Shown: in pieces, positions 28,418 to 57,599 of the stretch
Position numbering within the stretch: the stretch's first letter is position 1
How the letters are laid out: every line of letters begins with the position of its first letter
Origin: a virus
Virus record (IMG/VR): IMGVR_UViG_3300032246_001967
Span: 62,001-126,000 of that record
Reading direction: 5' to 3' (one strand)
DNA length: 64,000 nucleotides
Made by a program: the position numbers and the translations under genes
The notes under the pieces: generated by a model
What the model saw: the letters and a program-made list of their open reading frames with translations, nothing else
What the model was told of the DNA's origin: nothing
The model's database searches: none

Positions 28418-28422
28418 AACAT

Positions 28423-29925: not shown

Positions 29926-29937
29926 TTACAATAAAAA

Positions 29938-29969: not shown

Positions 29970-29973
29970 AGTT

Positions 29974-30195: not shown

Positions 30196-30211
30196 TTACA
30201 TATAAAAAGTT

Positions 30212-30451: not shown

Positions 30452-30464
30452 AAGCAACAATTTA

Positions 30465-30866: not shown

Positions 30867-30874
30867 TATTTATA
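30867..30874 (+). promoter_or_regulatory. TATTTATA box
   Basis: TATTTATA ends 3 nt before the ATG at 30878, so any transcript would be leaderless. No -33 TTGG at the fixed spacing. Confidence 0.5.
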
Positions 30875-30877
30875 ATA

Positions 30878-31117
30878 ATGAAAATAACATATTTTTATAC
30901 TAACGAATGTGGTAAATGTGCTGAATTAAAACCTTTAATTACTGAATTTAGTAAGGCTGTAGGAATTAAAATGATTAATACTCATGAAGAAGAATTAATT
31001 ACTGAAGCATATAAAATTGAATGGGTACCTACCTTAGTTATTGAAGATAGTAACGGTAAACATCATTTTGATGGTGTTAGTGAAATCAAAGAAGTTTTAA
31101 AAAAATTAGTAAAATGA
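30878..31117 (+). CDS. Small thioredoxin-like protein
   Basis: 79 residues with CGKC in FYTNECGKCAELKP and cis-Pro in EWVPTLVIE. It is a second small redox protein besides the one at 28423. Its stop overlaps the next ATG. Confidence 0.8.
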   Translation: MKITYFYTNECGKCAELKPLITEFSKAVGIKMINTHEEELITEAYKIEWVPTLVIEDSNGKHHFDGVSEIKEVLKKLVK

Positions 31118-31617: not shown

Positions 31618-31625
31618 TATATTAA
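31594..31625 (+). promoter_or_regulatory. Bacteroidota-type promoter for folE
   Basis: CTTGG at 31594, within the last codons of hpt, and TATATTAA at 31618, fixed spacing. folE starts 8 nt further on. Confidence 0.78.
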
Positions 31626-31633
31626 AAAAAGTT

Positions 31634-32323
31634 ATGGATAATAAAACATTTAAATTAGATTTAGAAGTAGTTAAACAAGGATATGCAAATGGAGTTGCTC
31701 CTAATTTTCCTTTGACTGAAGAAGAAAAGTGGGCAATGGTTGATAAAGCAACTGAAGCTTATGGACAGTTTTTAGATGCTTTAGGTTGTGATTGGAGAAA
31801 CGATCCTAATTCACAAGACACTCCTCGTAGAGTAGCTAAAGCATATGTGTTTGACTTATGGAAAGGTAGATATGAATCAATGTCTGATATTACAGCTTTC
31901 CCATCAGATGGTTATGATGGTATTGTAATTGAAAGAAATATTCCACTCACATCAATGTGTTCACATCACCACCAAACAATTGGAGGTGTAGTTCATATTG
32001 GTTATGTAGTAGGTGAAGGTGGTTCAGTAATTGGTTTAAGTAAATTAAATCGTATTGTAGAACATTTTGGTCGTAGAGGTGCTATCCAAGAACAATTAAC
32101 ATCAGCAATTCATCAAGCAGTAGATAAAATTACTGAAGGTAATCGTGGTGTTATTGTAACTGTAGTTGCCACTCACAACTGTGTAAGTTGTAGAGGTGTT
32201 AAACATCAAGGTGCTTCAATGGTTACTACAAAAGCATCAGGTGTGTTTTTAGATAATGCTAATTTGTCACGTCAAGAATTTTTTGACAGTATTAAAATTA
32301 ACAACGGAGGACATCAGATATAA
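31634..32323 (+). CDS. folE: GTP cyclohydrolase I
   Basis: 229 residues from ATG 31634, placed after the promoter; an upstream in-frame start at 31556 overlaps hpt. DTPRRVAKAY, the zinc and substrate motif SMCSHHHQTIGGVVHIGY, IGLSKLNRIVEHFGRR and CVSCRGVKHQGASM are all FolE signatures. It makes dihydroneopterin triphosphate from GTP, the first step of preQ0 synthesis. The next gene overlaps its stop. Confidence 0.92.
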   Translation: MDNKTFKLDLEVVKQGYANGVAPNFPLTEEEKWAMVDKATEAYGQFLDALGCDWRNDPNSQDTPRRVAKAYVFDLWKGRYESMSDITAFPSDGYDGIVIERNIPLTSMCSHHHQTIGGVVHIGYVVGEGGSVIGLSKLNRIVEHFGRRGAIQEQLTSAIHQAVDKITEGNRGVIVTVVATHNCVSCRGVKHQGASMVTTKASGVFLDNANLSRQEFFDSIKINNGGHQI

Positions 32324-35648: not shown

Positions 35649-35650
35649 AG

Positions 35651-36391
35651 ATGATAAATAAATTAGACTTAGTAAGTATTATTTCAAAGTATTACCTAAA
35701 CGGAATGAATGAAGCCGTTAAATGGGAAATCAAAGATAATAACTTAACAATTAAATTTACCTCTCCAGATAGATCAATGATTGGAGTTGTAACTTATGAA
35801 GGATTTGAATTAGAAGATTCAAATGTTGGTATCAGTAATACTACTCAATTAAATAAACTATTAGCTATTACAAATGGTTATTTAAATTTAGAATATCATA
35901 AACAACATAAAATGATTACTAAACTTATTGTAGCTGATAATCAATTCACTCTTAATTATGCTTTAGCTGATACTATGATTATTCCTAAAGCAGGTGAATA
36001 TATTGGTGATGGTCAATATAATATTGAAGCTACATTAGATAACGAAAGTATAAACGCTATAGTTAAAGCCAAATCAGCACTCGCAGATACTGATACAGTT
36101 GTATTTAAGCCGTTTATAAACGCTGATAATGAGTTACAATTAGAAATGTTGTTTGGAGGTAATATTGAACACTCAAATAAAGTATCATTTTATCTTCCAA
36201 ATATTGAAACTAACAATTTACCTAAAGATTTTAAAGCACACTACAATTCTAATTTAATTAAAGAGATTATGTATTGTAATAAAGATGTTCCTAATGGTGT
36301 GATGGGGATTAATTTAGACGGTGTTATGAGGTTGTTTTTTGATAGTGGTAAACTTAAAAGTGAGTATTATTTAGTCGCTAAAGAACTTTAA
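35651..36391 (+). CDS. Sliding clamp (gp45-like)
   Basis: 246 residues, near T4 gp45 (228). The start NKLDLVSIISKYYLNGMNEAVKW and KFTSPDRSMIGVV are gp45-type. It tethers the polymerase to DNA; in T4 it also activates late transcription, so it could do the same for the TATTTATA boxes here. Directly after the polymerase gene. Confidence 0.88.
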   Translation: MINKLDLVSIISKYYLNGMNEAVKWEIKDNNLTIKFTSPDRSMIGVVTYEGFELEDSNVGISNTTQLNKLLAITNGYLNLEYHKQHKMITKLIVADNQFTLNYALADTMIIPKAGEYIGDGQYNIEATLDNESINAIVKAKSALADTDTVVFKPFINADNELQLEMLFGGNIEHSNKVSFYLPNIETNNLPKDFKAHYNSNLIKEIMYCNKDVPNGVMGINLDGVMRLFFDSGKLKSEYYLVAKEL

Positions 36392-36953: not shown

Positions 36954-38853
<1,900 letters not shown>

Positions 38854-43120: not shown

Positions 43121-44557
43121 ATGAAAGATAAATTAGGTTATTTACCTCCTGAACAGAGGAAGAAGATCTTGCTTATCTGTGATGACATTAGAGTTCATTC
43201 AGGTATTGCAACAGTTGCTAGAGAAATTGTTATTCATACAGCACATCATTTTAATTGGGTTAACATAGCAGGAGCTATCCAACATCCAGAAAAAGGACAA
43301 AAATTTGATGTAAGTGCGGATACAAACAAAACAGCAGGTATTGAAGATTCATCAGTATTTTTATATCCAGTAGATGGATATGGTGATGCTGATCTTATTA
43401 GACAAATAATTAAATTAGAAAACCCAGACGCTATTATGTTAATTACTGATCCTCGTTATTTTGTTTGGTTATTCCAAATTGAAAATGAAATCAGAAAACA
43501 TATTCCTATTACTTATTTAAACATTTGGGATGATTACCCAGCACCAATTTATAATAAACCGTTTTATGAAGCCTGTGATTTGTTAATGGGTATTTCAAAA
43601 CAAACCGTAAATATTAATAAAATTGTTTTAGGTGATAAAGCTGATAATAAAATTATTACTTATGTACCTCATGGTTTAAATGATGAAATTTTTAAACCTC
43701 TAGATAAAAACAATTCAGATTTAAAAGAATTTAAAAAGTATTTATTTAAAGGAAAAACATATGATTTTGCTTTACTATTTAATTCTAGAAATATTAGACG
43801 TAAACAAATTCCAGATACTATTTTAGCATACAAATACTTTATAGATCAATTATCAGAATCAGAAGCTAAAAAATGTGCTTTAGTATTACATACTGAACGT
43901 GTTAGTGAACATGGTACTGATTTAGATGCTGTAATTGAATTATTATGTAATGATGAAAAATATAATGTAATCTTTACAGATGCTAAATTTGACGCTCATC
44001 AAATGAACTTATTGTATAATAGTACAGATGCTCAAATTTTATTAACATCTAATGAAGGTTGGGGATTAAGTATTACAGAAGCTATTTTAGCAGGAAGACC
44101 TATTATTGCAAACGTAACAGGTGGTATGCAAGATCAAATGAGATTTGAAGATGAAGATGGTAATTGGTTTACTCCATCACCTGAAGTGCCTTCAAACCAT
44201 ACTGGTAAGTATAAAAAACATGGTAAATGGGCTTTTCCAGTTTATCCAACTTCTAGAACATTAGTTGGTTCACCTCCAACACCTTATATCTGGGATGATA
44301 CTTGCAAACCAGAAGATGCTGCTGAACAAATTAAAGCTATTTATAATTTAACTCCTGAAGAAAGACAAGAATTAGGATTAGCAGGTAGAGAATGGGCTAC
44401 AAGTGATGAAGCAGGATTCACTTCAACTCATCAAGCTGAAAGAGTTATTAATGCTTTTGCTTCATTATTTAATTCTTGGAAACCAAGAGAAAAATATGAA
44501 TTGATTAACGTAAATGAATATCCTGATAGAACATTAAAACATAGTTTATTATATTAA
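43121..44557 (+). CDS. Glycosyltransferase, GT-B fold (group 1 type)
   Basis: 478 residues. The N-terminal ILLICDDIRVHSGIATVARE and the C-terminal donor-binding motif SNEGWGLSITEAILAGRPII with the E-x7-E spacing mark a GT4-type enzyme; GGMQDQM follows. It begins the carbohydrate island. Acceptor and sugar are unknown: candidates are host surface glycans, virion proteins or modified DNA. Confidence 0.83.
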   Translation: MKDKLGYLPPEQRKKILLICDDIRVHSGIATVAREIVIHTAHHFNWVNIAGAIQHPEKGQKFDVSADTNKTAGIEDSSVFLYPVDGYGDADLIRQIIKLENPDAIMLITDPRYFVWLFQIENEIRKHIPITYLNIWDDYPAPIYNKPFYEACDLLMGISKQTVNINKIVLGDKADNKIITYVPHGLNDEIFKPLDKNNSDLKEFKKYLFKGKTYDFALLFNSRNIRRKQIPDTILAYKYFIDQLSESEAKKCALVLHTERVSEHGTDLDAVIELLCNDEKYNVIFTDAKFDAHQMNLLYNSTDAQILLTSNEGWGLSITEAILAGRPIIANVTGGMQDQMRFEDEDGNWFTPSPEVPSNHTGKYKKHGKWAFPVYPTSRTLVGSPPTPYIWDDTCKPEDAAEQIKAIYNLTPEERQELGLAGREWATSDEAGFTSTHQAERVINAFASLFNSWKPREKYELINVNEYPDRTLKHSLLY

Positions 44558-44558
44558 A

Positions 44559-45866
44559 ATGAAACCGTTATTTATAATTAGTTGCCCTATAGATACCTAT
44601 TCTGGTTATGGTGCTCGCTCTCGTGATTTAGTTAAAGCAATAATTGAATTAGACAAATATGATGTTCAAATATTGCCTCAACGTTGGGGAGGTACACCTT
44701 GGAACTTTATTGAAGATCATAAAGAGGAATGGGGATTTTTACAAAAACATTTATTACTTGCTCCACAATTACCTAAACAACCTGAGATTTGGGCTCAAGT
44801 AACTATTCCAAATGAATTTCAACCTATTGGAAAATACAATATTGGCTTTACAGCTGGTATTGAAACAACACTTTGTGCTCCAGATTGGATTGAGGGGATT
44901 AATAGAATGGATGTTACTTTTGTTTCATCAGAACATTCTAAAAAAGTATTTGAAGAAAGTAAATTTGAACAAAGAGATCCACAAACAAACCAAATGGTTA
45001 AATTAATTGAATTACAAAAACCAGTTGAGGTATTATTTGAAGGAGCAGATTTAAATACTTATTTACCTATTTCTTCTGAAGAAGTAACAGATATTAATTT
45101 AGATAGTGTTAAAGAACAATTTGCTTACTTGTTTGTAGGACATTGGATTAATGGAGATTTAGGTGAGGATAGAAAAAATGTAGGTTTATTAATTAAAGCG
45201 TTTTATGAAACCTTTAAAAATAAATCTAAAAAACCAGCATTAATTTTAAAAACATCTCATGCTGGTTCGTCTTATGTTGATAGAGAAGAAATTATTAAAA
45301 AAATTAAACAGATTAAAAAAACAGTAAATTCTAAAGATTTACCTAATATTTATCTTCTACATGGTGAGTTTACTGATAAGGAAATGAATCAACTTTATAA
45401 CCATCCAAAAGTTAAAGCTATGATTAGTTTAACTAAAGGTGAAGGTTATGGACGTCCGTTGCTTGAGTTTACTTTAAGTAAAAAACCATTAATTACTACA
45501 GGATGGTCAGGACATATAGATTTCTTAAATTCTGAATTTACTAATTTAATTTCAGGACAATTAACTCCTGTTCATCCAAGTGCCGCTAACCAATGGTTAT
45601 TAAAAGAGGCAATGTGGTTCACTCCAGATAATGGTCAAATAGGTTTTTACTTAAAAGATGTATTTGAAAATTATAAAAATTATACTGATAAAGCTAAACG
45701 TCAAGCTTATAGAAGTAAAACTGAATTTAGTTTTGATAAAATGAAAGAAACAATTAATAGTTATTTAACTAAATATATTCCTGAATTTCCAAAACAAGTC
45801 CAAATCCAGTTACCTCAATTAAAGAAAATTGAATTACCTAAAAAAATAGAAATTAAAAATGGATAA
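44559..45866 (+). CDS. Glycosyltransferase, GT-B fold
   Basis: 435 residues. ISCPIDTYSGYGARSRDLVKA at the N-terminus, FVGHWINGDLGEDRKNV and SLTKGEGYGRPLLEFTLSKKP at the donor site match GT4-like enzymes. One base separates it from the previous glycosyltransferase, so the two likely act together. Confidence 0.8.
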   Translation: MKPLFIISCPIDTYSGYGARSRDLVKAIIELDKYDVQILPQRWGGTPWNFIEDHKEEWGFLQKHLLLAPQLPKQPEIWAQVTIPNEFQPIGKYNIGFTAGIETTLCAPDWIEGINRMDVTFVSSEHSKKVFEESKFEQRDPQTNQMVKLIELQKPVEVLFEGADLNTYLPISSEEVTDINLDSVKEQFAYLFVGHWINGDLGEDRKNVGLLIKAFYETFKNKSKKPALILKTSHAGSSYVDREEIIKKIKQIKKTVNSKDLPNIYLLHGEFTDKEMNQLYNHPKVKAMISLTKGEGYGRPLLEFTLSKKPLITTGWSGHIDFLNSEFTNLISGQLTPVHPSAANQWLLKEAMWFTPDNGQIGFYLKDVFENYKNYTDKAKRQAYRSKTEFSFDKMKETINSYLTKYIPEFPKQVQIQLPQLKKIELPKKIEIKNG

Positions 45867-46314
45867 CTTAATAATTTGTGATCGTTGCGGTTCAGACGCA
45901 TGTTACGTAGATGAAGTAAATCAAGACATCAAAACATATTTTTGTTATGGATGTGGTTTTCAAACTAACTCTTTAATGAAAGAAGGTGAGGATTTCTATA
46001 ATAAACAAATAGAAATTTTACCTGAATTGTATAAAGATTTATTCCACACTGATGAACATGGTAAAATTTGGATGCCATCAGCAGTAAACGTTCCTGATCA
46101 AGGTATGGTATTTGCTAATGGTTCAGGTATTACTAGTTGGGGTTGGAGTGCTGTTAAAGCAGTTCCTGTTAAGGAAGAAGAAAAATCTAAATACCCAATT
46201 CCTCATCAACCAGGAAAATTTTATGAGTACAGAATGGATATGAGTACAATGAAAAATTTCCATGAGCGTGATTATATGGAAGCCCTTTCATATATTGGGA
46301 TATTACCGGAGTAA
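45859..46314 (+). CDS. Zinc-ribbon protein, unknown
   Basis: 151 residues. An N-terminal zinc ribbon CDRCGSDACY...CYGCGF is followed by a globular part of unknown type (IWMPSAVNVPDQGMVFANG). It overlaps the preceding glycosyltransferase by 8 nt. Related proteins in T4-like phages have no known role. Confidence 0.68.
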   Translation: MDNLIICDRCGSDACYVDEVNQDIKTYFCYGCGFQTNSLMKEGEDFYNKQIEILPELYKDLFHTDEHGKIWMPSAVNVPDQGMVFANGSGITSWGWSAVKAVPVKEEEKSKYPIPHQPGKFYEYRMDMSTMKNFHERDYMEALSYIGILPE

Positions 46315-46355
46315 AATGTTTTTCAATCCTTGTTCAATCTTTATTTTTCTTTTAA

Positions 46356-46363
46356 TATTTATA
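46356..46363 (+). promoter_or_regulatory. TATTTATA box
   Basis: TATTTATA 8 nt before the ATG at 46372. A CTTG at 46329 lies one base off the fixed -33 spacing. Confidence 0.5.
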
Positions 46364-46371
46364 ATAAATAA

Positions 46372-46515
46372 ATGGGGCGTTTAAAAAAATATCTAACTGA
46401 AGAAGAAAAGTTAGTTGTTAAAAAACAACGTGCTTATGATTATTATTGGAAGAATAAAGAAAAACAAGATGAAAGAGCAAAACAAAGATATCAATCTAAA
46501 AAGAAAATGTCCTGA
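46372..46515 (+). pseudogene. Truncated endonuclease N-terminus or frameshifted upstream part
   Basis: 47 residues (MGRLKKYLTEEEKLVVKKQR at the start, then YDYYWKNKEKQDERAKQRYQ). The sequence looks like the start of phage HNH endonucleases and has a TATTTATA box, yet it stops after a few more codons. The Vsr-like endonuclease continues in the +1 frame through the A-rich stretch at 46498-46508. It is either a remnant, an overlapping small gene, or one gene broken by a frameshift or sequencing error. Confidence 0.5.
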
Positions 46516-47170
46516 TTGTAGTAAAGATTTATATTACAGTTCAAAAAATAATTTTAACACTGCAATTAAGTTAAATAAAGTTTGTAAAAGTTGTTCCTAT
46601 AAAAAAAGCAAAAATGGAAGAATTAAATCATTTTGTATTTCTTGTAATAATGAATTTGAACATTTTATATCAGATGGGATAAGAAAATTCTGCAGTAGAA
46701 AATGTTTTGATATTGGTAAAAACAAAACAAATTTATGTAAACCAAAAACTAAAGAAACAAAATTTAAAATAAGTCAAAAATTAAAAGGAAGAATAATATC
46801 TGAAGATCAAAAAATAAATCATGGAATATTCATGAGAACAAGATTTGGTGAGTTAGGTATAAAAGGAAAATTCAAACCTAATTTTAATCCAAATGCTTGT
46901 GTTTTAATAGAAGAATATGGAAAACAAAATGGATATAATTTTCAACATGCTTTAAATCATGGGGAATATTATATAAAAGAATTAGGGTATTGGGTAGATG
47001 GTTATGATAGTGAAAAAAATGTTGTTATAGAATTTTATGAAGAATGGCATCGTAAAACAAAACAAAAAGAAAAAGATCAAAAAAGAAAAGAATTAATAAT
47101 GAAAACTTTGAATTGTAAATTCATTATATTGTATTGGAATAATAAAATAGAAATATGCAACCTAAAATAA
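46469..47170 (+). CDS. Vsr/EDxHD-like homing endonuclease
   Basis: 233 residues from ATG 46469. KRKCPDCSKDLYYSSKNN and CKSCSY form an N-terminal zinc part, a second Cys pair set (CISCNNEFEH, FCSRKCFD) follows, and the C-terminus LGYWVDGYDSEKNVVIEFYE...WHRKTKQKEKDQKRK fits the Vsr-like nuclease core of phage homing endonucleases. It is inserted between the zinc-ribbon gene and a glycosyltransferase, whose ATG overlaps its end. Confidence 0.7.
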   Translation: MKEQNKDINLKRKCPDCSKDLYYSSKNNFNTAIKLNKVCKSCSYKKSKNGRIKSFCISCNNEFEHFISDGIRKFCSRKCFDIGKNKTNLCKPKTKETKFKISQKLKGRIISEDQKINHGIFMRTRFGELGIKGKFKPNFNPNACVLIEEYGKQNGYNFQHALNHGEYYIKELGYWVDGYDSEKNVVIEFYEEWHRKTKQKEKDQKRKELIMKTLNCKFIILYWNNKIEICNLK

Positions 47171-47772
47171 CAATAGGGGTGACCGTTTGTAATGAGGTAA
47201 AGGAACTAGAGGCTTTGTTGGAACATTTAGAAGACAAAGCCTTAGCTCCTGAGTATGAAATCGTAATTCAAATTGACCAAGATAACTACACTGAAGAAGT
47301 ATTAAGTGTTATTGTCGGTAAAGGAATAAAACATTGGTTTTATCCCCTTAATAAGGATTTCGCTTCATATAAAAATGAACTTAAAAAACATTGTTCAGGA
47401 GAATTTATCTTCCAAATTGATGCTGATGAATTAGTTGCTCCTGAAATGTTAGAATTATTGCCTAAAATTATTGAGGCAAACCCAGAAGTTGATTTGTATT
47501 ATGTTCCTAGAATTAATACTGTAAGTGGTATCACTCAGGAGCATGTACATAGATGGGGTTGGAGGTATGAAAATGAAAGAGTTAATTGGCCTGACTATCA
47601 AACTAGGATTTATAGAAACAGTAAAGATATTAATTGGAAAAATAAAGTTCATGAGGTTATTGAAGGGTTTAAACAATTCACTTTTCTACCAGCTGTTGAT
47701 GAATTAGCTTTAATTCATCCTAAATCAATTGAACGGCAAGAAAAACAAAACCAGTTTTATAATACATTATGA
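47155..47772 (+). CDS. Family 2 glycosyltransferase
   Basis: 205 residues. ITIGVTVCNEVKELEALLEHL is the GT-A N-terminal motif and FIFQIDADELVAPEML contains the metal-binding DAD. WGWRYENERVNWPDYQTRIYRN near the C-terminus is usual for GT2 enzymes. It overlaps the endonuclease end and the next start. Confidence 0.85.
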   Translation: MQPKITIGVTVCNEVKELEALLEHLEDKALAPEYEIVIQIDQDNYTEEVLSVIVGKGIKHWFYPLNKDFASYKNELKKHCSGEFIFQIDADELVAPEMLELLPKIIEANPEVDLYYVPRINTVSGITQEHVHRWGWRYENERVNWPDYQTRIYRNSKDINWKNKVHEVIEGFKQFTFLPAVDELALIHPKSIERQEKQNQFYNTL

Positions 47773-48581
47773 AAATAAAAACTGCTCATTTTGATAAAAA
47801 AAGTTTTGAAGATAAACTACAACATTTATCCCATATAGATTTTTCATTGTTTGTAGAAACAGCTCCACAATCTCAAGATGAATTATCTTCTATTAATATA
47901 ATTTCATTCCAAGAACCAAATGAGTATTTTGGTCTCCATGATTGGGTTATTCAAAATAAAGACTTATTCCAAATAATTTTAACTCAAAGCGATAGAGTAT
48001 TAAATAATTGTGATACCGCTATTTTTCAACCTTTTGGACATACTTGGTTAAAACCAGACCAATATGAAAAAGAACATGATAAAGAATTTAAATTAGCTCA
48101 TTTACAAGGTAAATTACTTAAAACATATGGTCATTCATTAAGACATCAAGTAACATCTAGAAAAAATGAATTTACTATTCCTACTAAGTTTTATGAGACT
48201 TATGGAAATAGAAATAATATTGAAGATGCTCGATTAGGTAAAGAGTTTATATTTGGTGATTCACAATTTGGAGTAGTAATTGAAAATGTTTCTTATAGAG
48301 GTTATTTTAGTGAAAAAATATTAGATTGTTTTTTATTAAAGACTATTCCTTTATATTGGGGTTGCTCGAACATAGGAGATTTTTTTGATATAAACGGTAT
48401 TATATCGTTTAGTAACGTAGACGATTTAATTCATATATCAAACAATTTAACAGAAGAGTTTTATGATTCTAAAAAAGAAATAATTAATAAAAATTGGAAA
48501 TTAGCTTTAAATTATGTAAATTACGAGCAAAACATAGTTAATACAATCACAGACATCTTTAAACACAACAATATTATATGA
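47769..48581 (+). CDS. Fucosyltransferase-like glycosyltransferase (GT10-like)
   Basis: 270 residues. FGVVIENVSYRGYFSEKILD followed by KTIPLYWGCSNIGDFFD matches the C-terminal donor-site pattern of alpha-1,3-fucosyltransferases (IEN...TEK...P.Y.G). The N-terminal part is not diagnostic. It overlaps both neighbours by 4 nt. Confidence 0.72.
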   Translation: MKIKTAHFDKKSFEDKLQHLSHIDFSLFVETAPQSQDELSSINIISFQEPNEYFGLHDWVIQNKDLFQIILTQSDRVLNNCDTAIFQPFGHTWLKPDQYEKEHDKEFKLAHLQGKLLKTYGHSLRHQVTSRKNEFTIPTKFYETYGNRNNIEDARLGKEFIFGDSQFGVVIENVSYRGYFSEKILDCFLLKTIPLYWGCSNIGDFFDINGIISFSNVDDLIHISNNLTEEFYDSKKEIINKNWKLALNYVNYEQNIVNTITDIFKHNNII

Positions 48582-49720
48582 AAAAAGTATGGTACGCTCC
48601 TTATAAGTTTGAGTCTTATGGGGAAGAAGAAATTAAAGCCGTAGAAGAATCTCTACGCTCAGGCTGGTTAGGTGGACAAGGACCTAAGTCAGTTGAATTT
48701 GAAGAAAAAATTGCTAAACGTTTTGGTAAGAAATTTGGAGTATTTGTTAACTCCGGTTCATCAGCATGTTTGTTAGCTATTGCTTCTTTGGATTTACCTA
48801 AAGGATGTAGTATTATTACTCCTGCTTGTACATTTTCAACTACATTAGCTCCTATTATTCAATTAGGTTATAAACCTAAATTTGTAGATGTAGGATTAAA
48901 TGATTATGTAGCTGATATTGATCAAGTAGTAGCTGCTATTACATCTGATGTAAAAGCTATTATGTTACCTAATTTGATTGGTAATAAACCAGATTGGGCT
49001 AAACTAAAGCAAGAAATTAAATTGTTAGGTAGAACAGATATCATTTTGATTGAAGATTCAGCTGATACAATTACTGAAACACCTGAAACAGATGTAGCAA
49101 CAACTAGTTTTTATGCCTCACACGTAATTACAGCAGGTGGTGTTGGTGGTATGGTAATGTTTAATGATAAAAAACACGTTACTAAGTGTCTACAATACAG
49201 AGACTGGGGTAGATTGGGTGATGATTCGGAAATTATGGATGATCGTTTTAATCACAGTGTAGACGGTATTCCTTATGACCACAAGTTCTTATATTCTGTA
49301 TTAGGATACCATATGAAAGCTTGTGAAATGAATGCTGCGTTTGGATTAGTTCAATTACACCGTTTTGAAAAATTCTCTCAAATTCGTAGAGAAAATATTG
49401 AACGTTACATTGAAAATCTTCAAGGTGTAGGTGATTTGATCTTACCAGATGATTCTATTCAACCAAACTGGTTAGCAATTCCTTTACAAACAGAAAAACG
49501 TTATGAATTACTTAACTTCCTAGAAGATAATAATATCCAAACACGAGTAACATTCGCTGGAAACGTAACACGTCACCCTGTTTATAGAGAGTATTTACAG
49601 TCATTTGAAAACGCTGATACTATTATGAAAAACGGTTTCTTGTTAGGTGCACACCACGGAATGACTGTTGAGGATGTAGATTACGTTTGTGGTAAAATTA
49701 AAGAATTTTTTAATAAATAA
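48578..49720 (+). CDS. DegT-family PLP enzyme with His in place of catalytic Lys (sugar 3-dehydratase type)
   Basis: 380 residues. VNSGSSACLLAI, LIEDSAD (Asp160 to the pyridine N) and SFYASHVITAGGVGG are DegT/DnrJ motifs. Where aminotransferases have the Schiff-base Lys, this protein has His182, as in ColD and the RfbH/E1 group that remove the C3 hydroxyl of 4-keto-6-deoxy sugar nucleotides. I therefore infer a 3-dehydratase for a 3,6-dideoxysugar, not an aminotransferase. A thiamine-diphosphate enzyme gene follows. Confidence 0.75.
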   Translation: MKKVWYAPYKFESYGEEEIKAVEESLRSGWLGGQGPKSVEFEEKIAKRFGKKFGVFVNSGSSACLLAIASLDLPKGCSIITPACTFSTTLAPIIQLGYKPKFVDVGLNDYVADIDQVVAAITSDVKAIMLPNLIGNKPDWAKLKQEIKLLGRTDIILIEDSADTITETPETDVATTSFYASHVITAGGVGGMVMFNDKKHVTKCLQYRDWGRLGDDSEIMDDRFNHSVDGIPYDHKFLYSVLGYHMKACEMNAAFGLVQLHRFEKFSQIRRENIERYIENLQGVGDLILPDDSIQPNWLAIPLQTEKRYELLNFLEDNNIQTRVTFAGNVTRHPVYREYLQSFENADTIMKNGFLLGAHHGMTVEDVDYVCGKIKEFFNK

Positions 49721-49723
49721 ATT

Positions 49724-51511
49724 ATGATTAAAGTAAGTGATGTTGTTGCTGAATTTTTAAAGCATAAACAAATAGATACTGTATTTGGTATCATTGGTTC
49801 GGCTAATTCTCATATTTTTGATTCAATTCAAAATCTAGGATATACAAAAATTATTTGTACACATCACGAACAAGCCGCAATTATGGCAATGGCTGCTTAT
49901 TACCGAGCATCAGGTAAATTATCAGCAGCCATTGTAACTGCGGGGGCAGGAGCTAGTAATGCTATTACTGGAGTTATAAGTAACTGGGCAGATTCTATTC
50001 CTGGATTTATTATTTCAGGACAAGAACCAAGTACATACCTTGATATTCATAAAAATTTAAGGATGTATGGTACTCAAGGATTCAGTGCTTATGAAATGGT
50101 TAAAAATGTTACTAAATATAGTAATGTATTAACTAATCCAAACACAATACAAGCTGAACTAGAAACACTATATAATATTAGTGTATCTGGAAGACCAGGT
50201 CCAACATGGTTAGATATTCCTTTAGATTCTCAAGCAAAAAAGGTTAAATTTAAAAGTTTTAGTAATTATTCTAATAAATCTTTAAGAATAACAGATGCTT
50301 ATACTTATGCTGATGATATTATTAAATTAATAAATCAATCAAAACGTCCCCTTGTATTAGGTGGAATGGGTATTAAGTTAAATAATGCTAAAGATAAATT
50401 TAAAAAGTTTATTAACGCAACTCAATTACCTACTACATTAAGTTGGTCAGGAATTGATTTATTACCTACTAATCATAGTTGTAATTATGGAAGATTTGGT
50501 TTGTATGGTCAACGAGCCGCTAATTTTATAGCTCAAAATGCTGATTTGATTGTAGTTTTAGGAAGTAGATTAGCTCTACCTCAAGTAGGATACGATTTTA
50601 GTCAGTTTGCTAGAGGAGCTAAAATTGTAGTAGTTGATATTGATGAATTAGAATTAAATAAATACGAACGAACCATTAAATATAATCATGATGTAAGTAT
50701 TGTTTTAGACAAATTATTAGAAAATGTTACTAAAATCAATCCTGATATTAGTGAATGGAAAACTAAATGTGATTACTATCGTACTGAATATCCAATAATC
50801 AATGATGATTATAAAGACGACAAATATGTTAATTCATATAGTTTTGTAAATACACTAACCCAAAAACTATCAGACGATGAAATTATAGTTACTGATATGG
50901 GTACAGGTTTATTAAGTGGTCATCAAGCAGGTCATTTAAAGGAAAACCAAACCATGTTTACAAGTCAAGGTTTAGGTGAAATGGGTGTTGGTTTACCTTA
51001 TGCTATTGGAGCAGCGTTTGCTGAACCAAATAAACAAATCACTTGTTTAAACTGTGATGGGGGTATAATGATGAACCTTCAAGAATTACAAACCATAGTA
51101 CAACATAACCTTCCAGTTAAAATATTCATTTTTAATAATGATGGGTATTTAATGATTAAACATACTCAAAAATTATTCTTTAATGGACGTTATAACTCCG
51201 TAGATTCTAGTACAGGAATCCAACTACCAGAATTTGAAAGAATTGCTTATGGTTTTAATATTCCTTATGTTAGAATAGATAGAATTAAGGATTTAGATGG
51301 AATGAATTTAAATTATAACTCTCCTGTTATTATTGAAGTGTTTATGGATCCTGAACAAAATTTTATACCTAAAGTAAAAGGTGTAATATTAGAAGATGAA
51401 TCAATTTTTGCTCCACCATTAGAGGAAATGTCTCCATTATTGCCTTTTGAAACTATTCAAAAAGAAATGATAGTAGATATTAGTGAAAAATCAAAACAAA
51501 TCAAAAGATGA
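49724..51511 (+). CDS. Thiamine-diphosphate enzyme, acetolactate synthase-like
   Basis: 595 residues. The catalytic Glu is in CTHHEQAA (Glu49), the FAD/linker domain is in the middle, and the TPP motif NCDGGIMMNLQEL...FNND lies at about 441-472. Such enzymes join a two-carbon unit from pyruvate to a 2-keto acid or, in YerE, to a 4-keto sugar. Its place between a sugar 3-dehydratase and a sugar-nucleotide reductase favours sugar branching; true acetolactate synthesis is the alternative. Confidence 0.78.
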   Translation: MIKVSDVVAEFLKHKQIDTVFGIIGSANSHIFDSIQNLGYTKIICTHHEQAAIMAMAAYYRASGKLSAAIVTAGAGASNAITGVISNWADSIPGFIISGQEPSTYLDIHKNLRMYGTQGFSAYEMVKNVTKYSNVLTNPNTIQAELETLYNISVSGRPGPTWLDIPLDSQAKKVKFKSFSNYSNKSLRITDAYTYADDIIKLINQSKRPLVLGGMGIKLNNAKDKFKKFINATQLPTTLSWSGIDLLPTNHSCNYGRFGLYGQRAANFIAQNADLIVVLGSRLALPQVGYDFSQFARGAKIVVVDIDELELNKYERTIKYNHDVSIVLDKLLENVTKINPDISEWKTKCDYYRTEYPIINDDYKDDKYVNSYSFVNTLTQKLSDDEIIVTDMGTGLLSGHQAGHLKENQTMFTSQGLGEMGVGLPYAIGAAFAEPNKQITCLNCDGGIMMNLQELQTIVQHNLPVKIFIFNNDGYLMIKHTQKLFFNGRYNSVDSSTGIQLPEFERIAYGFNIPYVRIDRIKDLDGMNLNYNSPVIIEVFMDPEQNFIPKVKGVILEDESIFAPPLEEMSPLLPFETIQKEMIVDISEKSKQIKR

Positions 51512-52278
51512 AAATATTAATTACAGGAGCCAATGGTTATATAGGCAAGTCTTTAACTAATGCTCTAAAAAATGAATATGAAGTAACTACTTTAACTAGA
51601 CAAAACGCTGATTTAACTAATGCTGAACAAGTTAAAGAATATTTTAAAGATAAATATTTTGATGTAGTTATCCATTGTGCTATTGAAGGTGGTTATAGAT
51701 TAGAAAAAGATGGACCTGAGGTTATAGATAATAATTTAAAAATGTATTATAATCTTTTAGATAATAAAACACACTTTAATAAATTATTTCATTTCGGTTC
51801 AGGAGCAGAAAAACAAGATACATTTTATGGTTTAAGTAAAAAAGTAATAAACGAATCCCTTCAGAATAAAGATAATTTTTATAATATAAGAATATTTGCT
51901 GTATTTGATGAAAATGAAAATGATGCTAGATTTATTAAAACAAATATTCGTAAGTATATTAATAAAGAAGATATAGAAATATTTGTTAATAAGTATATGG
52001 ATTTCTTTTATATGGAAGACTTTATTACGTTAATAAAATATTGTATATTAACAGATAATTTACCTAAAATTGTAGAATGTAGTTATAACCATTCTCCAAC
52101 TTTATATGATGTAGCCCAACTTATTAACGAATTAAATAACCATAAAGTAAATATTAATATTAAAAATTGGGAATTAGCACCTTCATTTAATGGTAAGTTT
52201 GTAGATTTAGATTTAAAATTTATTGGTTTAAAACAAGGTATAAAAAACGTTTACGAGAAATTAAAAAATGAATATTAA
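51508..52278 (+). CDS. NAD-dependent sugar epimerase/reductase (extended SDR)
   Basis: 256 residues. The Rossmann start MKILITGANGYIGKSL has GxxGxxG, VVIHCAIEGG follows, and YGLSKKV is the YxxxK site. Small for the family (usually about 300). It could reduce a keto or acyl group on the sugar nucleotide made upstream. It overlaps the next gene by 11 nt. Confidence 0.8.
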   Translation: MKILITGANGYIGKSLTNALKNEYEVTTLTRQNADLTNAEQVKEYFKDKYFDVVIHCAIEGGYRLEKDGPEVIDNNLKMYYNLLDNKTHFNKLFHFGSGAEKQDTFYGLSKKVINESLQNKDNFYNIRIFAVFDENENDARFIKTNIRKYINKEDIEIFVNKYMDFFYMEDFITLIKYCILTDNLPKIVECSYNHSPTLYDVAQLINELNNHKVNINIKNWELAPSFNGKFVDLDLKFIGLKQGIKNVYEKLKNEY

Positions 52279-53182
52279 AATAGCAACACACATAATGCCT
52301 TGGGACATTGATTATGCTTTATTGATGTTTACTCAATTAAAAAAATCCCAATACCACTTACCAGAAAATGTTAATATAACTATAGATGTTGAATTAAATC
52401 TTTCTAGTTATGTTATTAATTGGGAAGAAAGTAAATTACCAAAAGAGTATTTTATTGAAAAATATAACACATTGTTGCTATTATTAGATGGTTATAACGT
52501 GGTTACAAATGTATATAACGGTGACGAGTTACATGGTCATCTAGATCAACAACGTCGGATAGTATCGCCTGAAATAGACTATTATATGAGTATATGTCCT
52601 GATGTTTATTTTAGTGAATTAACTATTCCTTTATTAATTCAGGGGGCAGCTCAAATAAAAAATAAATATTTTGTTTTAAGTCCTCAACATAGAAAACTAA
52701 CTGATCCTAGTTGGGATCCTACTACTGATACTTCTTATTTAGATATACCTTATGATAAATGTAATAAAATAAGTATTTTTGATATAAGAAATAATAATAA
52801 ACAAAATAATAAAATCACTATAGACCCAGTATCAAATGTTAAATTTGCTGGTTGGTGTGACATTTATAGTAAAGATTTTTATGAGGAATTAGTTCCTATA
52901 CATGAAGATTGGAATGGATATGGTCCTTGGGATTGGTATAGTATGATTTTAATTAATTATTCTAAACAATTTAGTATTGATTTTCAACAATATGTTTTAA
53001 GAGGACAAACAATAGGAGATTATTGGACCGGCAATTGGAAAGAAAAAGATGGACTATCAGGCTATTATAAAAATCTAATAGTAAGAAATGAAATACCTAG
53101 TCAAAGAGATACATTTGAAGCTAACATGGAACAGTATGTTAAAAAAGGTATTTTAATGTTAAAAGAAAAAGGAATTATATGA
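52268..53182 (+). CDS. Unassigned protein of the sugar island, possibly a glycosyltransferase
   Basis: 304 residues. The N-terminus KIATHIMPWDIDYALLMFTQL looks like a glycosyltransferase GT-A start, and KFAGWCDIYSKDFYEELVPI with WNGYGPWDWYSMI resembles the acceptor half of such enzymes. No clear DxD. The tight overlaps with both neighbours place it in the same pathway. Confidence 0.6.
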   Translation: MNIKIATHIMPWDIDYALLMFTQLKKSQYHLPENVNITIDVELNLSSYVINWEESKLPKEYFIEKYNTLLLLLDGYNVVTNVYNGDELHGHLDQQRRIVSPEIDYYMSICPDVYFSELTIPLLIQGAAQIKNKYFVLSPQHRKLTDPSWDPTTDTSYLDIPYDKCNKISIFDIRNNNKQNNKITIDPVSNVKFAGWCDIYSKDFYEELVPIHEDWNGYGPWDWYSMILINYSKQFSIDFQQYVLRGQTIGDYWTGNWKEKDGLSGYYKNLIVRNEIPSQRDTFEANMEQYVKKGILMLKEKGII

Positions 53183-54537
53183 TTAAATTAGTTATATTTG
53201 ATTTAGATGGAGTTTTAGTTGAAGCTAAAAATATTCATTTTGAAGCTTTTAATAAAGCATTAGGTGAATATGCTATTAGTTGGGATGAACATTTATCTAT
53301 TTACGATGGATTAAAAACAAACCAAAAATTAGATATGCTTCATGAACGTAAGGGTTTACCTAAAGAATACTTTACTAGTATTTGGAACAATAAACAAAAA
53401 TATACTTTAGAAGCATTAACTAATCTAGAAAAGGATGAAAATTTATATTCAACAATTCAAAATTTATCTTTAGATGGTTATAAATTAGCTGTATGTTCTA
53501 ATAGCATACGTAAAACTATTTTAACAGTATTATCTAAATTAGGTATTATTGAATTTTTTGATTTAATATTATCAAATGAGGATGTAAAAAATAGCAAACC
53601 ACACCCTGAAATCTATTGGAAAGCAATATCAGAAATGAGTTGTTTACCTGAAGAAACATTAATTGTTGAGGATTCACCTTATGGACTATTATCTGCCTCT
53701 AGATCAAAATCCCATATACTTAGAGTAGGTTCCCCAAAAGAAGTTACTTATATTAACATAAAGAATAAAATTAATACTATTAAAGAAAATTATAATATGA
53801 AGTCACCTGCTTGGAGAGATGAAAAATTAAATGTACTTATTCCTATGGCTGGAGCCGGTTCTAGATTTGAACAAGCTGGTTATACATTTCCTAAACCACT
53901 TATTGAGGTTAGGAATAAACCAATGATTCAAGTTGTAGTAGATAATTTAAATATCAAAGCAAACTATATCTATATTGTCCAGAAAAAACATCGTGAAAAA
54001 TATAATCTAGATACATTACTCAATTTAATTACACCAAACTGTAAAATAGTAGAAGTAGATGGTTTAACCGAAGGAGCAGCTTGTACCGCGTTATTGGCTA
54101 AGGAATTTATTGATAACGATGCTCCTTTATTTTTCGCCAATTCAGATCAATTTGTAGAATGGGATTCAAATGAATTTATGTACAAAATGAATGAAACAAA
54201 TGCTGATGGAGGTATTGTTACATTTGAAGCAACTCACCCAAAATGGTCATTCGCTAAAGTAGATGAAAAAGGTTTAGTGACAGAAGTAGCTGAAAAAAAT
54301 CCAATTTCTAATATTGCTACTGTTGGTTATTATTATTGGAAACATGGTTCTGATTTTGTAAAATATGCTGAACAAATGATTGATAAAAATATTAGGGTAA
54401 ATAATGAGTTTTATGTTTGTCCTGTGTTTAATGAAGCTATTGGGGATGCTAAAGAAATTAGAATGTTTAATGTAGAGGGAATGTGGGGACTAGGTACACC
54501 TGAGGATTTAAAATATTATTTAGAAAACTACAAATGA
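53179..54537 (+). CDS. HAD phosphatase - sugar nucleotidyltransferase fusion
   Basis: 452 residues. Residues 1-195 form a beta-phosphoglucomutase-like HAD domain: VIFDLDGVLVEAK, CSNSIRK and SKPHPEIY...IVEDSPYGL. From about 212 a nucleotidyltransferase begins: LNVLIPMAGAGSRFEQAG, FPKPLIEV, then FFANSDQFVEW as metal site. The fusion would dephosphorylate or isomerise a sugar phosphate and activate it to an NDP-sugar. No start signal separates the halves; the frame is continuous. Confidence 0.83.
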   Translation: MIKLVIFDLDGVLVEAKNIHFEAFNKALGEYAISWDEHLSIYDGLKTNQKLDMLHERKGLPKEYFTSIWNNKQKYTLEALTNLEKDENLYSTIQNLSLDGYKLAVCSNSIRKTILTVLSKLGIIEFFDLILSNEDVKNSKPHPEIYWKAISEMSCLPEETLIVEDSPYGLLSASRSKSHILRVGSPKEVTYINIKNKINTIKENYNMKSPAWRDEKLNVLIPMAGAGSRFEQAGYTFPKPLIEVRNKPMIQVVVDNLNIKANYIYIVQKKHREKYNLDTLLNLITPNCKIVEVDGLTEGAACTALLAKEFIDNDAPLFFANSDQFVEWDSNEFMYKMNETNADGGIVTFEATHPKWSFAKVDEKGLVTEVAEKNPISNIATVGYYYWKHGSDFVKYAEQMIDKNIRVNNEFYVCPVFNEAIGDAKEIRMFNVEGMWGLGTPEDLKYYLENYK

Positions 54538-54959
54538 TTAAGATATCACATAGAGGAAACATTAATGGTCGAATAGAAGAAGCCGAAAATAGACCAGACT
54601 ATATTGAAGATACTTTAAGATTAGGATACGATGTTGAAGTTGATGTTTGGTATTTAGATAATAAATTTTATTTAGGACACGATGAAGCTTTGTATGCTAC
54701 CGATAAAATATTTTTAAGTAATCCTCATTTATGGGTACATTGTAAAAATGTAGATGCTATTTTAGCTTTAAAACATAGTAAGGTACATTATTTTTGGCAT
54801 GAAAATGATACAATTGCTTTAACATCATTAGGATTTATATGGACTTATCCTGGTAAACAACCTATTAAAAATAGTATAGCAGTTATGCCTGAGTTGTATA
54901 ATGATAATTTAAGTTTTTGTATAGGTATTTGTTCAGATTATATCCAAAACTATAAATAA
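54534..54959 (+). CDS. Glycerophosphodiester phosphodiesterase-like protein
   Basis: 141 residues. KISHRGNINGRIEEAENRPDYI and GYDVEVDVWYLDNKFYLGHDE follow the GDPD barrel start (HRG, E, D..., H). It is half the usual length, so only part of the barrel is present; it may be a minimal form. Such small proteins occur in glycan clusters, substrate unknown. Confidence 0.62.
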   Translation: MIKISHRGNINGRIEEAENRPDYIEDTLRLGYDVEVDVWYLDNKFYLGHDEALYATDKIFLSNPHLWVHCKNVDAILALKHSKVHYFWHENDTIALTSLGFIWTYPGKQPIKNSIAVMPELYNDNLSFCIGICSDYIQNYK

Positions 54960-55646
54960 ATGCAAGGAATAGTTATACAAGGACCTCTTACTTTTTATAA
55001 AGAAATAGTGGAATGCTATAAACACGTTCCTAATATTGTTATTTCAACTTGGGATGATGAAAATATAGAACGTATTAATTATATTAAAAATAATAATATT
55101 CCAATAGTACTCTCAACAAAACCAACAAATCCAGGACATTTAAATATTAATATGCAAACAATTTCAACAATGGGGGGTATACATTATCTAGAACAAACAA
55201 AAGTTACAGAAATACTTAAAATCAGAACAGATGTTATAACCACAAATATAGACAAATTATTAAGTATATTAAAAAATAAATCATTAGCATTTTTAGCTAT
55301 ATGTAAATTAAATGCTAGACCCTTATATTATGAATTAGAATATAATCATTATAGTTTTGACTTTCCTATTAACTTTATGGAATATGGAAGTCTAGAAAAT
55401 ATAAAAAATTTATTTAATTTTACAATAGAAGATGATATACCTATCCCTCCTGAATCTTTAATATCATATAATTATTTTAAATCAAATAATTTAGAATTTA
55501 AACTTGATTATAATTATTTTTTACAAAATAATATTTATTTTTATTTAAATGATTGTATTCAACATAATATTGATTTTTTATGGCTAAAAAGAAATTCACA
55601 AAGCATTATAAAAATGCATAAAGATAAAACATTATATAATTATTAA
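54960..55646 (+). CDS. WavE-like lipopolysaccharide glycosyltransferase
   Basis: 228 residues. GIVIQGPLTFYKE, IVISTWDDE, NPGHLNINMQTISTMGG and EILKIRTDV match the WavE family of outer-core LPS biosynthesis. A and T content is very high (long AT runs near the 3' end). It starts on the base after the previous stop. Confidence 0.72.
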   Translation: MQGIVIQGPLTFYKEIVECYKHVPNIVISTWDDENIERINYIKNNNIPIVLSTKPTNPGHLNINMQTISTMGGIHYLEQTKVTEILKIRTDVITTNIDKLLSILKNKSLAFLAICKLNARPLYYELEYNHYSFDFPINFMEYGSLENIKNLFNFTIEDDIPIPPESLISYNYFKSNNLEFKLDYNYFLQNNIYFYLNDCIQHNIDFLWLKRNSQSIIKMHKDKTLYNY

Positions 55647-55659
55647 AATATTAATCAAA

Positions 55660-56685
55660 ATGAACACACTATTTACATTCCAGAAATTCCCCAAGAGTAT
55701 ATGTTCTCAAGATACTCCATTAAGTGATAATGAACAACTAATTGAAGCCAATATTGTAGAATATGAGGATGGATCTATTCATTTTTTACCATATATTGAT
55801 CCTAAAGAAATATATCTAAACCAACATAATAATTGTGTAGGAGAAATATGGAAGCAACATTATATAGAATTTTCAAATTTTGTTTCTAAATATGAAAAAC
55901 AAAATATAGTTGAAATAGCTGGAGGAAATGGTAATATATTTTTAAATTTTAAAGAAAATAATCCTAACTATAAAAGTTGGAAAATTATTGATATTAATCC
56001 TACATCTAATTATGAGGGAGATGATAGAGTAAATGTAATTAAAGGTTTTTATGAACCTAGTTTTGTAAATAGTAATGAAGTTGTTATAAGTTCTCATTTT
56101 GTTGAACATGTTTTTGATTTAGAAATATTTTTAAAAGAATTATCTAATAGAAATCCTAAATATCATATTTTTTCATTACCTAATTTTAAGTCTTTCTCTT
56201 CCAAGAATTATACTGCTACTATAATGTTCGAACATCCTAATTATTTACCTGAGGATTACTTAGAATTTATTTTAGATAAAAATGGATGGGAAATAGTTGA
56301 TAAATATTATTATAAAGAACATTCTATTTTTTATGTAACTCAACCTACAACTATTAAAAATACTATTCTCAAATTTAATAATAAATCAGACATTATTAAT
56401 ATGATTAATTATATAAAAAACAGAGTTGAAGATATTAAAGACAAAAAATTTTATGTATTTGGAGCTCATTTAACTTACTACTATTTATTAAATTTAGGTA
56501 TTAAAGAAGAACAAATAATAGCTGTAGTAGATAATGATTCTAAAAAGCAAAATAAAAGAATGTATGGTACAAATACTAAAATTATATCATCATTAGATTT
56601 ACCTACAAATGCTGATGTATTTTTAGAAATGGGTCCTTATAATGAAGAAATTAAAAAGTCAATAAGTAATGTTAATTTTATATAA
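55660..56685 (+). CDS. Sugar C-methyltransferase-like protein
   Basis: 341 residues. The SAM site is IVEIAGGNGNIFLNF (about 86-100) and VVISSHFVEHVFD follows. The C-terminal domain FYVFGAHLTYYYLLNLGI...VVDNDSKKQNKRMYGT is the pattern of C-methyltransferases acting on NDP-sugars. The zinc Cys set usual at the N-terminus is missing. This fits synthesis of a branched sugar. Confidence 0.75.
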   Translation: MNTLFTFQKFPKSICSQDTPLSDNEQLIEANIVEYEDGSIHFLPYIDPKEIYLNQHNNCVGEIWKQHYIEFSNFVSKYEKQNIVEIAGGNGNIFLNFKENNPNYKSWKIIDINPTSNYEGDDRVNVIKGFYEPSFVNSNEVVISSHFVEHVFDLEIFLKELSNRNPKYHIFSLPNFKSFSSKNYTATIMFEHPNYLPEDYLEFILDKNGWEIVDKYYYKEHSIFYVTQPTTIKNTILKFNNKSDIINMINYIKNRVEDIKDKKFYVFGAHLTYYYLLNLGIKEEQIIAVVDNDSKKQNKRMYGTNTKIISSLDLPTNADVFLEMGPYNEEIKKSISNVNFI

Positions 56686-56687
56686 TT

Positions 56688-57599
56688 ATGATATCACTTA
56701 TTATACCAACAAATAAAACAAACTCAAACTATACTAAAAATTTAGTAAATAATATTAGAGAAATTTATCCGGATGAAACCCAAGTTGAAATTATAGTATC
56801 AGAAGATGATACAGTAACTATGGGGGTAAATTATAACAATGCTGTAGCTAGAGCTAATGGTGAAAAAATTATATTGCTTCACAATGATATGGTTATTAAA
56901 CCTGGTTTTGTGGAACAAATGGATAAAGATATTGTTAAAGGAAGAATCACAGCATACACTAGAGTAGAACCACCAATTTATCCAGATACTTATACTGGTA
57001 AAGTTATTCTAGATTGTGGTACATCATTAGAAACATTTAATAAAGATAAATTCTTAAATTTTGATATTGAAGAGGGACTTACTGATGGAGGTGCTCAGCT
57101 ATTCTTTGGATGTATGAAAGAAGATTATTTAGGTATTGATGGATATACTTTTAAATTATTCTGTGAAGATGATGATTTACATTTGAGACATAAAATAGCA
57201 GGATTTGAACAAAAAGTAAGTTCAGCGCATGTTTATCATTTTGTAAGTAAAACATCTAGAGCTGGAAGTTATCAAGAAATTGAACAACAATCAAATATAA
57301 ACTTTATTAAAAAATGGGGTTTTAGAAACTCAATCCATAATGTTGTTTATAATAAAAAAATTATTGTAAATAATGATACTCAAAATATAAAAAATATTTT
57401 AGATATGTGGTTCAATGATGGAGAGGATATAATTGTTGAAGTTGATGGTAATACTTTTACTCAACAAGATTATAGTTACATTCAACAACTAAATGATATT
57501 ATAAAAGAAACTAATGACATTGGAGTTTTTGAAATAGGAAATTTAAAGATAACAGTAAATAATTTAAACGAGCAACAATTTAAATATGTAGAATTATGA
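56688..57599 (+). CDS. Family 2 glycosyltransferase
   Basis: 303 residues. SLIIPTNKTNSNYTKNLVNNI, YNNAVARANGEKIILLHNDMVI (metal site HND) and GCMKEDYLGIDGY are GT2 features. C-terminal 80 residues are not assigned. Last large gene of the island; overlaps the next small gene by 4 nt. Confidence 0.82.
   Translation: MISLIIPTNKTNSNYTKNLVNNIREIYPDETQVEIIVSEDDTVTMGVNYNNAVARANGEKIILLHNDMVIKPGFVEQMDKDIVKGRITAYTRVEPPIYPDTYTGKVILDCGTSLETFNKDKFLNFDIEEGLTDGGAQLFFGCMKEDYLGIDGYTFKLFCEDDDLHLRHKIAGFEQKVSSAHVYHFVSKTSRAGSYQEIEQQSNINFIKKWGFRNSIHNVVYNKKIIVNNDTQNIKNILDMWFNDGEDIIVEVDGNTFTQQDYSYIQQLNDIIKETNDIGVFEIGNLKITVNNLNEQQFKYVEL

Follow-up and report, generated by a model that had tools for sequence, protein, structure and literature searches.

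A window of 64,000 bases of viral DNA (bases 62001-126000 of the 128,324-base virus record IMGVR_UViG_3300032246_001967; "the window" denotes this whole stretch) carries an island of sugar-related genes at 43121-57599. The core of the island is best explained as a pathway that makes a nucleoside diphosphate (NDP)-linked, C-4-branched 3,6-dideoxyhexose, which is then transferred, and we consider this reading probable. Three adjacent genes form the core, each named here by its start position in the window: a DegT-family enzyme (48578), a thiamine diphosphate (ThDP)-dependent enzyme (49724) and a short-chain dehydrogenase/reductase (SDR, 51508). The record is possibly incomplete, and absences from it carry that limit. 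Related viral and bacterial loci are designated by L numbers.

The ThDP enzyme

Protein 49724 contains three TPP_enzyme domains (E-values down to 2e-32). Its best solved relative was JanthE of Janthinobacterium sp. HH01 (PDB entries 8rph, 8rpi and 8rpj), with similarity over the full length (8rph: E 1e-165, 556 bits), followed by the large subunit of acetohydroxyacid synthase (AHAS) I (6lpi, 244 bits) and by 5ahk (236 bits). The latter, which we take to be PpYerE, is far more distant from 49724 than JanthE is. In a phylogenetic tree, 49724 grouped with JanthE, apart from AHAS, glyoxylate carboligase and 5ahk (support 0.997-1.0); the tree sequences of JanthE, 5ahk and 6lpi were taken from search alignments and lack a few terminal residues. 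The CDG motif is kept in 49724, as are seven JanthE residues not conserved in AHAS of E. coli (Y268, P293, Y297, M406, C458, H494 and K567). M406 and C458 were found in 73 of the 76 full-length viral homologs. Position 436 differs: Y in JanthE, V in the window enzyme.

Published work describes JanthE (8rph) as YerE-like: it is a lyase whose CDG motif is unusual, and both JanthE and YerE join 2-oxo acids to ketone acceptors, the substrate of YerE being cytidine diphosphate (CDP)-3,6-dideoxy-4-keto-glucose (PMC12247030, PMC12188165). JanthE also accepts 4-hydroxy-2-oxovalerate (PMC12188165); the literature searched did not name its natural sugar substrate. Very probably, 49724 is a ThDP carboligase of the JanthE/YerE-like CDG type; it is predicted to attach an acyl unit at C-4 of a keto sugar. 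Grouping with true acetolactate synthases would have counted against an earlier reading of the window (the sequence-only reading), but 49724 scored higher with JanthE (556 bits) than with AHAS (244 bits) and grouped with the former. No close JanthE-type relative was present in the INPHARED phage collection, where the matches to 49724 were AHAS-like, with at most 31% identity, and many were apparently bacterial DNA inside phage records.

The DegT enzyme

The best PDB matches of 48578 were CDP-4-keto-6-deoxyglucose-3-dehydrase (E1, RfbH/DdhC) and ColD, which have the DegT family and a catalytic His in common with it. In 48578 this His replaces the lysine that binds pyridoxal phosphate (PLP), within an SFYASH motif, and it was present in all 18 phage DegT members of the window type, window included; the 3-dehydratase pattern read earlier from the sequence was thus upheld. 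The protein is nearer in sequence to E1 than to ColD, but E1 has iron-sulphur (Fe-S) cysteines, whereas no E1-type Fe-S cysteines were found in 48578, which also scored under the cut-off of the RfbH model (NF011936: 251 bits versus 423). It belongs to a separate Fe-S-free lineage that is common to phages and Bacteroidia and is set apart from E1.

The His-type, Fe-S-free DegT and the Fe-S RfbH-type enzyme alternate between related loci: they occurred in 20 and 25, respectively, of the 79 loci of the 6-kb set and in 17 and 8 of the 29 loci of the 10-kb set, never together; these loci are related to one another, and the alternation carries no formal probability. Homologs of 48578 (43-45% identity) were found in 9 of 395 Bacteroidia genomes, all with the His and all without the E1-type cysteine pattern, and rfbF and rfbG lay near the DegT gene in the four loci fetched. 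Because of this alternation with RfbH and the rfbF/rfbG neighbours of the bacterial homologs, the role of 48578 as a predicted Fe-S-free NDP-4-keto-6-deoxyhexose 3-dehydratase is supported.

The four bacterial loci (L219-L222) also suggest an undescribed lineage of bacterial 3-dehydratases, independent of phages. One of them, L219, carries in addition rmlC- and rmlD-like genes, forming an ascarylose-like set.

The reductase, the transferases and selection

SDR 51508 is RmlD/Fcl-like (PDB profile match, E 6e-13), and S98, Y107 and K111 were invariant in 19 phage members. Two candidate transferases adjoin the core. Protein 47769 carries the C-terminal guanosine diphosphate (GDP)-donor motif of glycosyltransferase (GT) family 10 (FucT structure profile, E 2e-13); PF00852 was detected in 14 of 14 members of its family, the window member alone scoring E 0.067, under the Pfam cut-off. 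A sequence search of 52268 against the PDB gave no match; its fold was then predicted, and the model (AlphaFold, predicted local distance difference test (pLDDT) score 90) was matched by Foldseek to hyaluronan synthase, COLGALT1 and GalNAc-T2, which makes the protein GT-A-fold glycosyltransferase-like as modelled.

The ratio of nonsynonymous to synonymous substitution rates (dN/dS) of the DegT, ThDP, SDR and GT10 genes was 0.05-0.23 (versus three relatives). These genes are therefore under purifying selection, which argues for function rather than a relic.

The cassette in other viruses and in bacteria

The sequence-only reading had called a phage that makes and attaches a branched sugar very unusual; the cassette is not unique, since JanthE/YerE-like ThDP genes were found on 79 viral contigs in a scan for the ThDP gene. 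At 66 of these 79 loci the gene adjoins a 4-hydroxy-2-oxovalerate aldolase gene (MhpE), nearly always with acetaldehyde dehydrogenase (MhpF). A scan for the viral aldolase also returned 79 loci: the ThDP gene lay within 6 kb in 74 of them, and the other five were cut by contig ends. RmlB-ThDP-MhpF-MhpE-SDR was the commonest gene order (43 loci). In phage locus L014, both MhpE and MhpF scored above curated cut-offs, and the acetaldehyde dehydrogenase is of the acetylating type.

Five bacterial relatives also carry MhpE and acetaldehyde dehydrogenase. At L030, L031 and L034, rfbF and rfbG (above curated cut-offs) were accompanied by mhpF, mhpE, a CDG-type ThDP gene and an RfbH-type gene; in L030 the last also passed its cut-off. 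L030 is a Flavobacteriaceae locus of O-antigen type (Wzy_C, ABC transporter), in which rfbF, rfbG, rfbH, the ThDP gene, mhpF and mhpE are consecutive.

On the simplest reading, MhpF and MhpE would supply 4-hydroxy-2-oxovalerate to the ThDP enzyme, the aldolase pair being presumed to run in that direction. Because these two genes stand beside most viral ThDP genes, the usual viral donor is probably 4-hydroxy-2-oxovalerate, not pyruvate, which suggests that the branch is longer and hydroxylated, like those of erwiniose and caryophyllose. The branching enzymes of those sugars, ErwE and MMAR_2332, use hydroxylated 2-oxo acids (PMC12247030), matching the MhpE and MhpF of the viral relatives; the window itself, unlike them, lacks both genes.

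Two further observations concern the ThDP gene. The ThDP-MhpF-MhpE cassette is also present on a viral contig of jumbo-phage size (L109 / L180, 326,658 bases). At L200 and L201 the DegT, RmlB and SDR neighbours are the same, but the ThDP homologs are divergent (38%) and have no CDG motif; a second type of branching enzyme may occupy the slot there.

The window's clade

Nine records (the window's and L001-L008) carry DegT-ThDP-SDR without MhpE. MhpF and an RmlB-like gene were found neither in the loci of these nine records nor in the window record. Most viral relatives have an RmlB-like gene; genes of the 4-keto-6-deoxyhexose pathway were not found in the window record. The three core genes are intact, and the ThDP enzyme is 77-97% conserved in the clade.

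Because the clade is nested among MhpE-linked clades in the ThDP tree, loss of MhpE is likelier than its ancestral absence. Since the donor genes and the 4,6-dehydratase were not found in the clade, the host probably supplies the precursors, unless genes for them lie in unsequenced DNA. Seven alignment columns set the clade apart from MhpE-linked members, one of them the change of Y436 to V after the conserved GLGEMG loop. On account of these differences the window's clade may use another donor, perhaps pyruvate, in which case the comparison with yersiniose would again apply.

Proposed pathway

The reactions, nucleotide, donor and acceptor named here are predicted from the gene content, family membership, active-site residues, linkage and purifying selection observed. 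The pathway would proceed as follows: by pyridoxamine phosphate (PMP) chemistry without an Fe-S centre, the DegT enzyme would strip an NDP-4-keto-6-deoxyhexose (most likely CDP-4-keto-6-deoxyglucose) of its C-3 hydroxyl. The JanthE-type enzyme would then decarboxylate a 2-oxo acid and join the resulting acyl unit to the ketone at C-4; the product would be a tertiary alcohol bearing a keto side chain, whose ketone the SDR would reduce. Finally, an adjoining glycosyltransferase (candidates: the GT10-like 47769 and the GT-A-fold 52268) would place the sugar on a glycan begun by the conserved GT4 and GT2 enzymes that frame the cassette. In most viral relatives the donor would probably be 4-hydroxy-2-oxovalerate, made by their own MhpF and MhpE out of acetyl-CoA and pyruvate. 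The window's clade would have lost MhpE, MhpF and the 4,6-dehydratase; its precursors would probably come from the host, and its donor would be pyruvate or a host 2-oxo acid.

Possible acceptors, as in the sequence-only reading, are the virion, the host surface and DNA. No clear transmembrane stretch was found in the 15 island proteins (the top 19-residue hydropathy means, 1.75 and 1.59, occurred in soluble families). As the island proteins include no membrane or export component, a cytoplasmic acceptor (virion protein or DNA) is favoured, and use of host export is possible. DNA is a possible acceptor because the record has 7-deazaguanine DNA-modification genes.

Comparison with yersiniose and points of doubt

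The sequence-only reading had likened 48578-49724-51508 to the yersiniose chain. The order of step types is that of the yersiniose A pathway of Yersinia pseudotuberculosis (3-dehydrase, ThDP carboligase, then reductase, with YerE and YerF), and the JanthE-type ThDP enzyme and the 3-dehydrase His bear out this part of the claim. Within the 128-kb record the chain has gaps: of the full yersiniose set (CDP-glucose synthase, 4,6-dehydratase, 3-dehydrase, YerE and YerF), the first two were not found there, and the one nucleotidyltransferase of the record is that of the haloacid dehalogenase (HAD) fusion 53179. The window DegT also differs in lacking the E1 Fe-S cysteines. A two-carbon branch from pyruvate, proposed by analogy with yersiniose, becomes one option only, given MhpE and MhpF in most viral and five bacterial relatives.

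Several points weigh against a branched-sugar pathway. 4,6-dehydratase, MhpE and MhpF were looked for across the 128-kb record (possibly incomplete), and none was found. The likeness to yersiniose is one of step types. Solved enzymes are only distant relatives of SDR 51508, whose substrate is therefore a prediction. The link of the HAD-nucleotidyltransferase (NTP) fusion to the branched sugar is doubtful because it is missing in most relatives.

An NDP-sugar pathway could use such a fusion. It was considered as a pathway step and rejected, as most relatives are without it: among the 10-kb relatives, close homologs were found only in L007, L008 and L012.

Alternative explanations

A variant of the preferred reading concerns the branch: the sugar made by the window's cassette would be that of the related cassettes and carry a four-carbon hydroxylated branch, with 4-hydroxy-2-oxovalerate taken from the host. 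This is a serious possibility, at rather less than even chances. It draws on the frequency of MhpE among the viral (66/79) and five bacterial relatives, on the acceptance of 4-hydroxy-2-oxovalerate by JanthE (PMC12188165) and on the pocket residues checked, which are unchanged in the window's clade; set against it, the clade lacks MhpE and MhpF, and V at position 436, where all MhpE-linked members have Y, may mean a changed donor.

Alternatively, the reduced cassette may make no sugar alone and may top up or divert the pathway of a host that already makes the same branched sugar. The missing 4,6-dehydratase, MhpE and MhpF would fit this, as would the complete versions in Bacteroidota, such as L030. 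However, the core genes are intact, conserved and under purifying selection, and suitable hosts look rare: when 395 genomes of L030's class were sampled, a close ThDP homolog turned up only in L030's own genome. We therefore judge this explanation unlikely.

It is very improbable that 48578 is a sugar aminotransferase, in which case the ThDP enzyme would act elsewhere and the island would make an amino sugar. DegT proteins are mostly aminotransferases, and the related phage immuto carries genes annotated as aminotransferases in the same slot, but in 48578 the PLP lysine is replaced by His, the nearest structures are 3-dehydrases, this type of enzyme takes the place of RfbH in the cassette, and its bacterial homologs accompany rfbF and rfbG.

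That 49724 is an acetolactate synthase (an ilvB-type auxiliary gene) for branched-chain amino acids during infection is scarcely credible: its best named NCBIfam matches are acetolactate synthases, and an ilvB gene is so listed on Chlorobium phage contigs (PMC8226683), but the NCBIfam scores fall far under the curated cut-offs (TIGR00118: 336 bits versus 538), the neighbours are sugar enzymes, and the structure scores, tree, CDG motif and pocket residues, which differ in AHAS, rule out a biosynthetic AHAS.

Phage setting and island layout

Identity to the Flavobacterium phage vB_FspM_immuto (Immutovirus), the nearest cultured phage, was 61% for terminase, 58% for portal and 55% for capsid. Immuto comes from a Baltic Sea Flavobacterium and has T4-type head genes and a tail sheath. 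The window phage is of myovirus type and related to immuto, and because of the closeness of these three proteins a Bacteroidota host is likely.

The two phages have the same glycosyltransferase frame: GT4, GT4, a small protein and GT2 on the left, and GT2 on the right. In Immutovirus the slot is filled by another sugar cassette, which comprises two DegT genes annotated as transaminases together with genes for a pilin-glycosylation protein and an epimerase but, unlike that of the window, no ThDP enzyme. The island is best explained as a virus-borne slot for sugar diversification between conserved glycosyltransferases.

The island comprises 15 intact open reading frames (ORFs), all on the + strand and arranged like an operon, with overlaps of 4-11 bp or short gaps (Table 1). 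Of the families named in the sequence-only reading, DegT, ThDP, SDR and HAD-nucleotidyltransferase were recovered with Pfam, and the "C-methyltransferase" 55660 was only weakly assigned. Its count of at least six glycosyltransferase-type proteins was exceeded: seven were identified by families, profile and fold (two GT4, two GT2, GT10-like, GT-A-fold and WavE-like).

Table 1. Genes of the island, in window coordinates
Coordinates	Strand	Assignment	Evidence
43121..44557	+	GT4 glycosyltransferase, left frame gene	PF00534 E 3e-7; 57% to immuto GT; RM378 homolog
44559..45866	+	Second GT4-type glycosyltransferase, conserved frame gene	phrog_2170 E 3e-16; 60% to immuto26A_91
45859..46314	+	Small Cys-containing conserved protein, frame gene	44% to immuto26A_92; no Pfam match
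46415..47170	+	ORF, mobile-endonuclease-like by eye, outside pathway	No Pfam match; relatives without it at same place
47155..47772	+	GT2 glycosyltransferase, frame gene	PF00535 E 1e-10; 44% to immuto26A_93
47769..48581	+	GT10-like (fucosyltransferase-type), candidate deoxysugar transferase	Profile versus FucT 2nzw E 2e-13
48578..49720	+	His-type Fe-S-free DegT, predicted NDP-4-keto-6-deoxyhexose 3-dehydratase	DegT_DnrJ_EryC1 E 4e-69; SFYASH motif
49724..51511	+	JanthE/YerE-like CDG-type ThDP carboligase, predicted C-4 acyl branching	8rph E 1e-165
51508..52278	+	RmlD/Fcl-like SDR reductase, predicted branch-ketone reduction (YerF-like role)	PF01370 E 8e-21, RmlD_sub_bind
52268..53182	+	GT-A-fold glycosyltransferase-like	AlphaFold pLDDT 90; Foldseek matches E 1e-7 to 1e-5
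53179..54537	+	HAD (beta-phosphoglucomutase type) and sugar-nucleotidyltransferase fusion, variable accessory module	PF13419 (HAD_2) E 5e-31, PF00483 (NTP_transferase) E 3e-12
54534..54959	+	Small protein accompanying HAD-NTP fusion; no match in family searches	
54960..55646	+	WavE-like lipopolysaccharide-synthesis protein, weak	PF07507 E 2e-5, under Pfam cut-off
55660..56685	+	S-adenosylmethionine methyltransferase-like, weak	PF13489 (Methyltransf_23), PF08484 (Methyltransf_14), below cut-off; phrog_24523, phrog_37107
56688..57599	+	GT2-type glycosyltransferase, conserved right frame gene	PF00535 E 2e-5; 27% to immuto26A_102

Elsewhere in the window, homologs of DpdA, QueC, QueD, QueE and FolE (7-deazaguanine DNA modification) were found at 24492-32296, as in Immutovirus, and homologs of GroES and GroEL at 36957-38853 (45% and 62% identity to immuto). 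Directly before the terminase gene lies an ORF of 450 amino acids that by eye resembles oxidoreductases dependent on flavin adenine dinucleotide (L040:15011-16363, record bases 35011-36363). At L007:4722-6962, two ORFs resemble GIY-YIG-type homing endonucleases; one splits the second GT4 gene and the other follows directly after it.

Significance

Phage-encoded sugar-nucleotide enzymes and glycosyltransferases are already known. No report of phage-encoded sugar branching, that is, of a pathway forming C-C bonds, was found in the literature searched, which largely did not extend to subscription papers. A wider and more tentative proposal, at somewhat less than even chances, is that an exchangeable cassette for a C-branched 3,6-dideoxy sugar is present in several lineages of viruses; it would include its own synthesis of the donor 4-hydroxy-2-oxovalerate and an undescribed Fe-S-free 3-dehydratase lineage, and would serve to decorate virions or DNA. 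The DegT enzymes offer a candidate Fe-S-free 3-dehydratase family, and the aldolase pair points to a compound that is likely to be a natural donor of JanthE-group enzymes, a matter of interest to biocatalysis.

Virome papers list ilvB (PMC8226683) and 4-hydroxy-2-oxovalerate aldolase (PMC13303688) as auxiliary genes, and these genes may be members of this cassette. If the proposal is true, auxiliary genes labelled "acetolactate synthase" or "4-hydroxy-2-oxovalerate aldolase" in viruses would often serve sugar branching, not amino-acid metabolism, and virome surveys that assign them to amino-acid or aromatic metabolism might need correcting.

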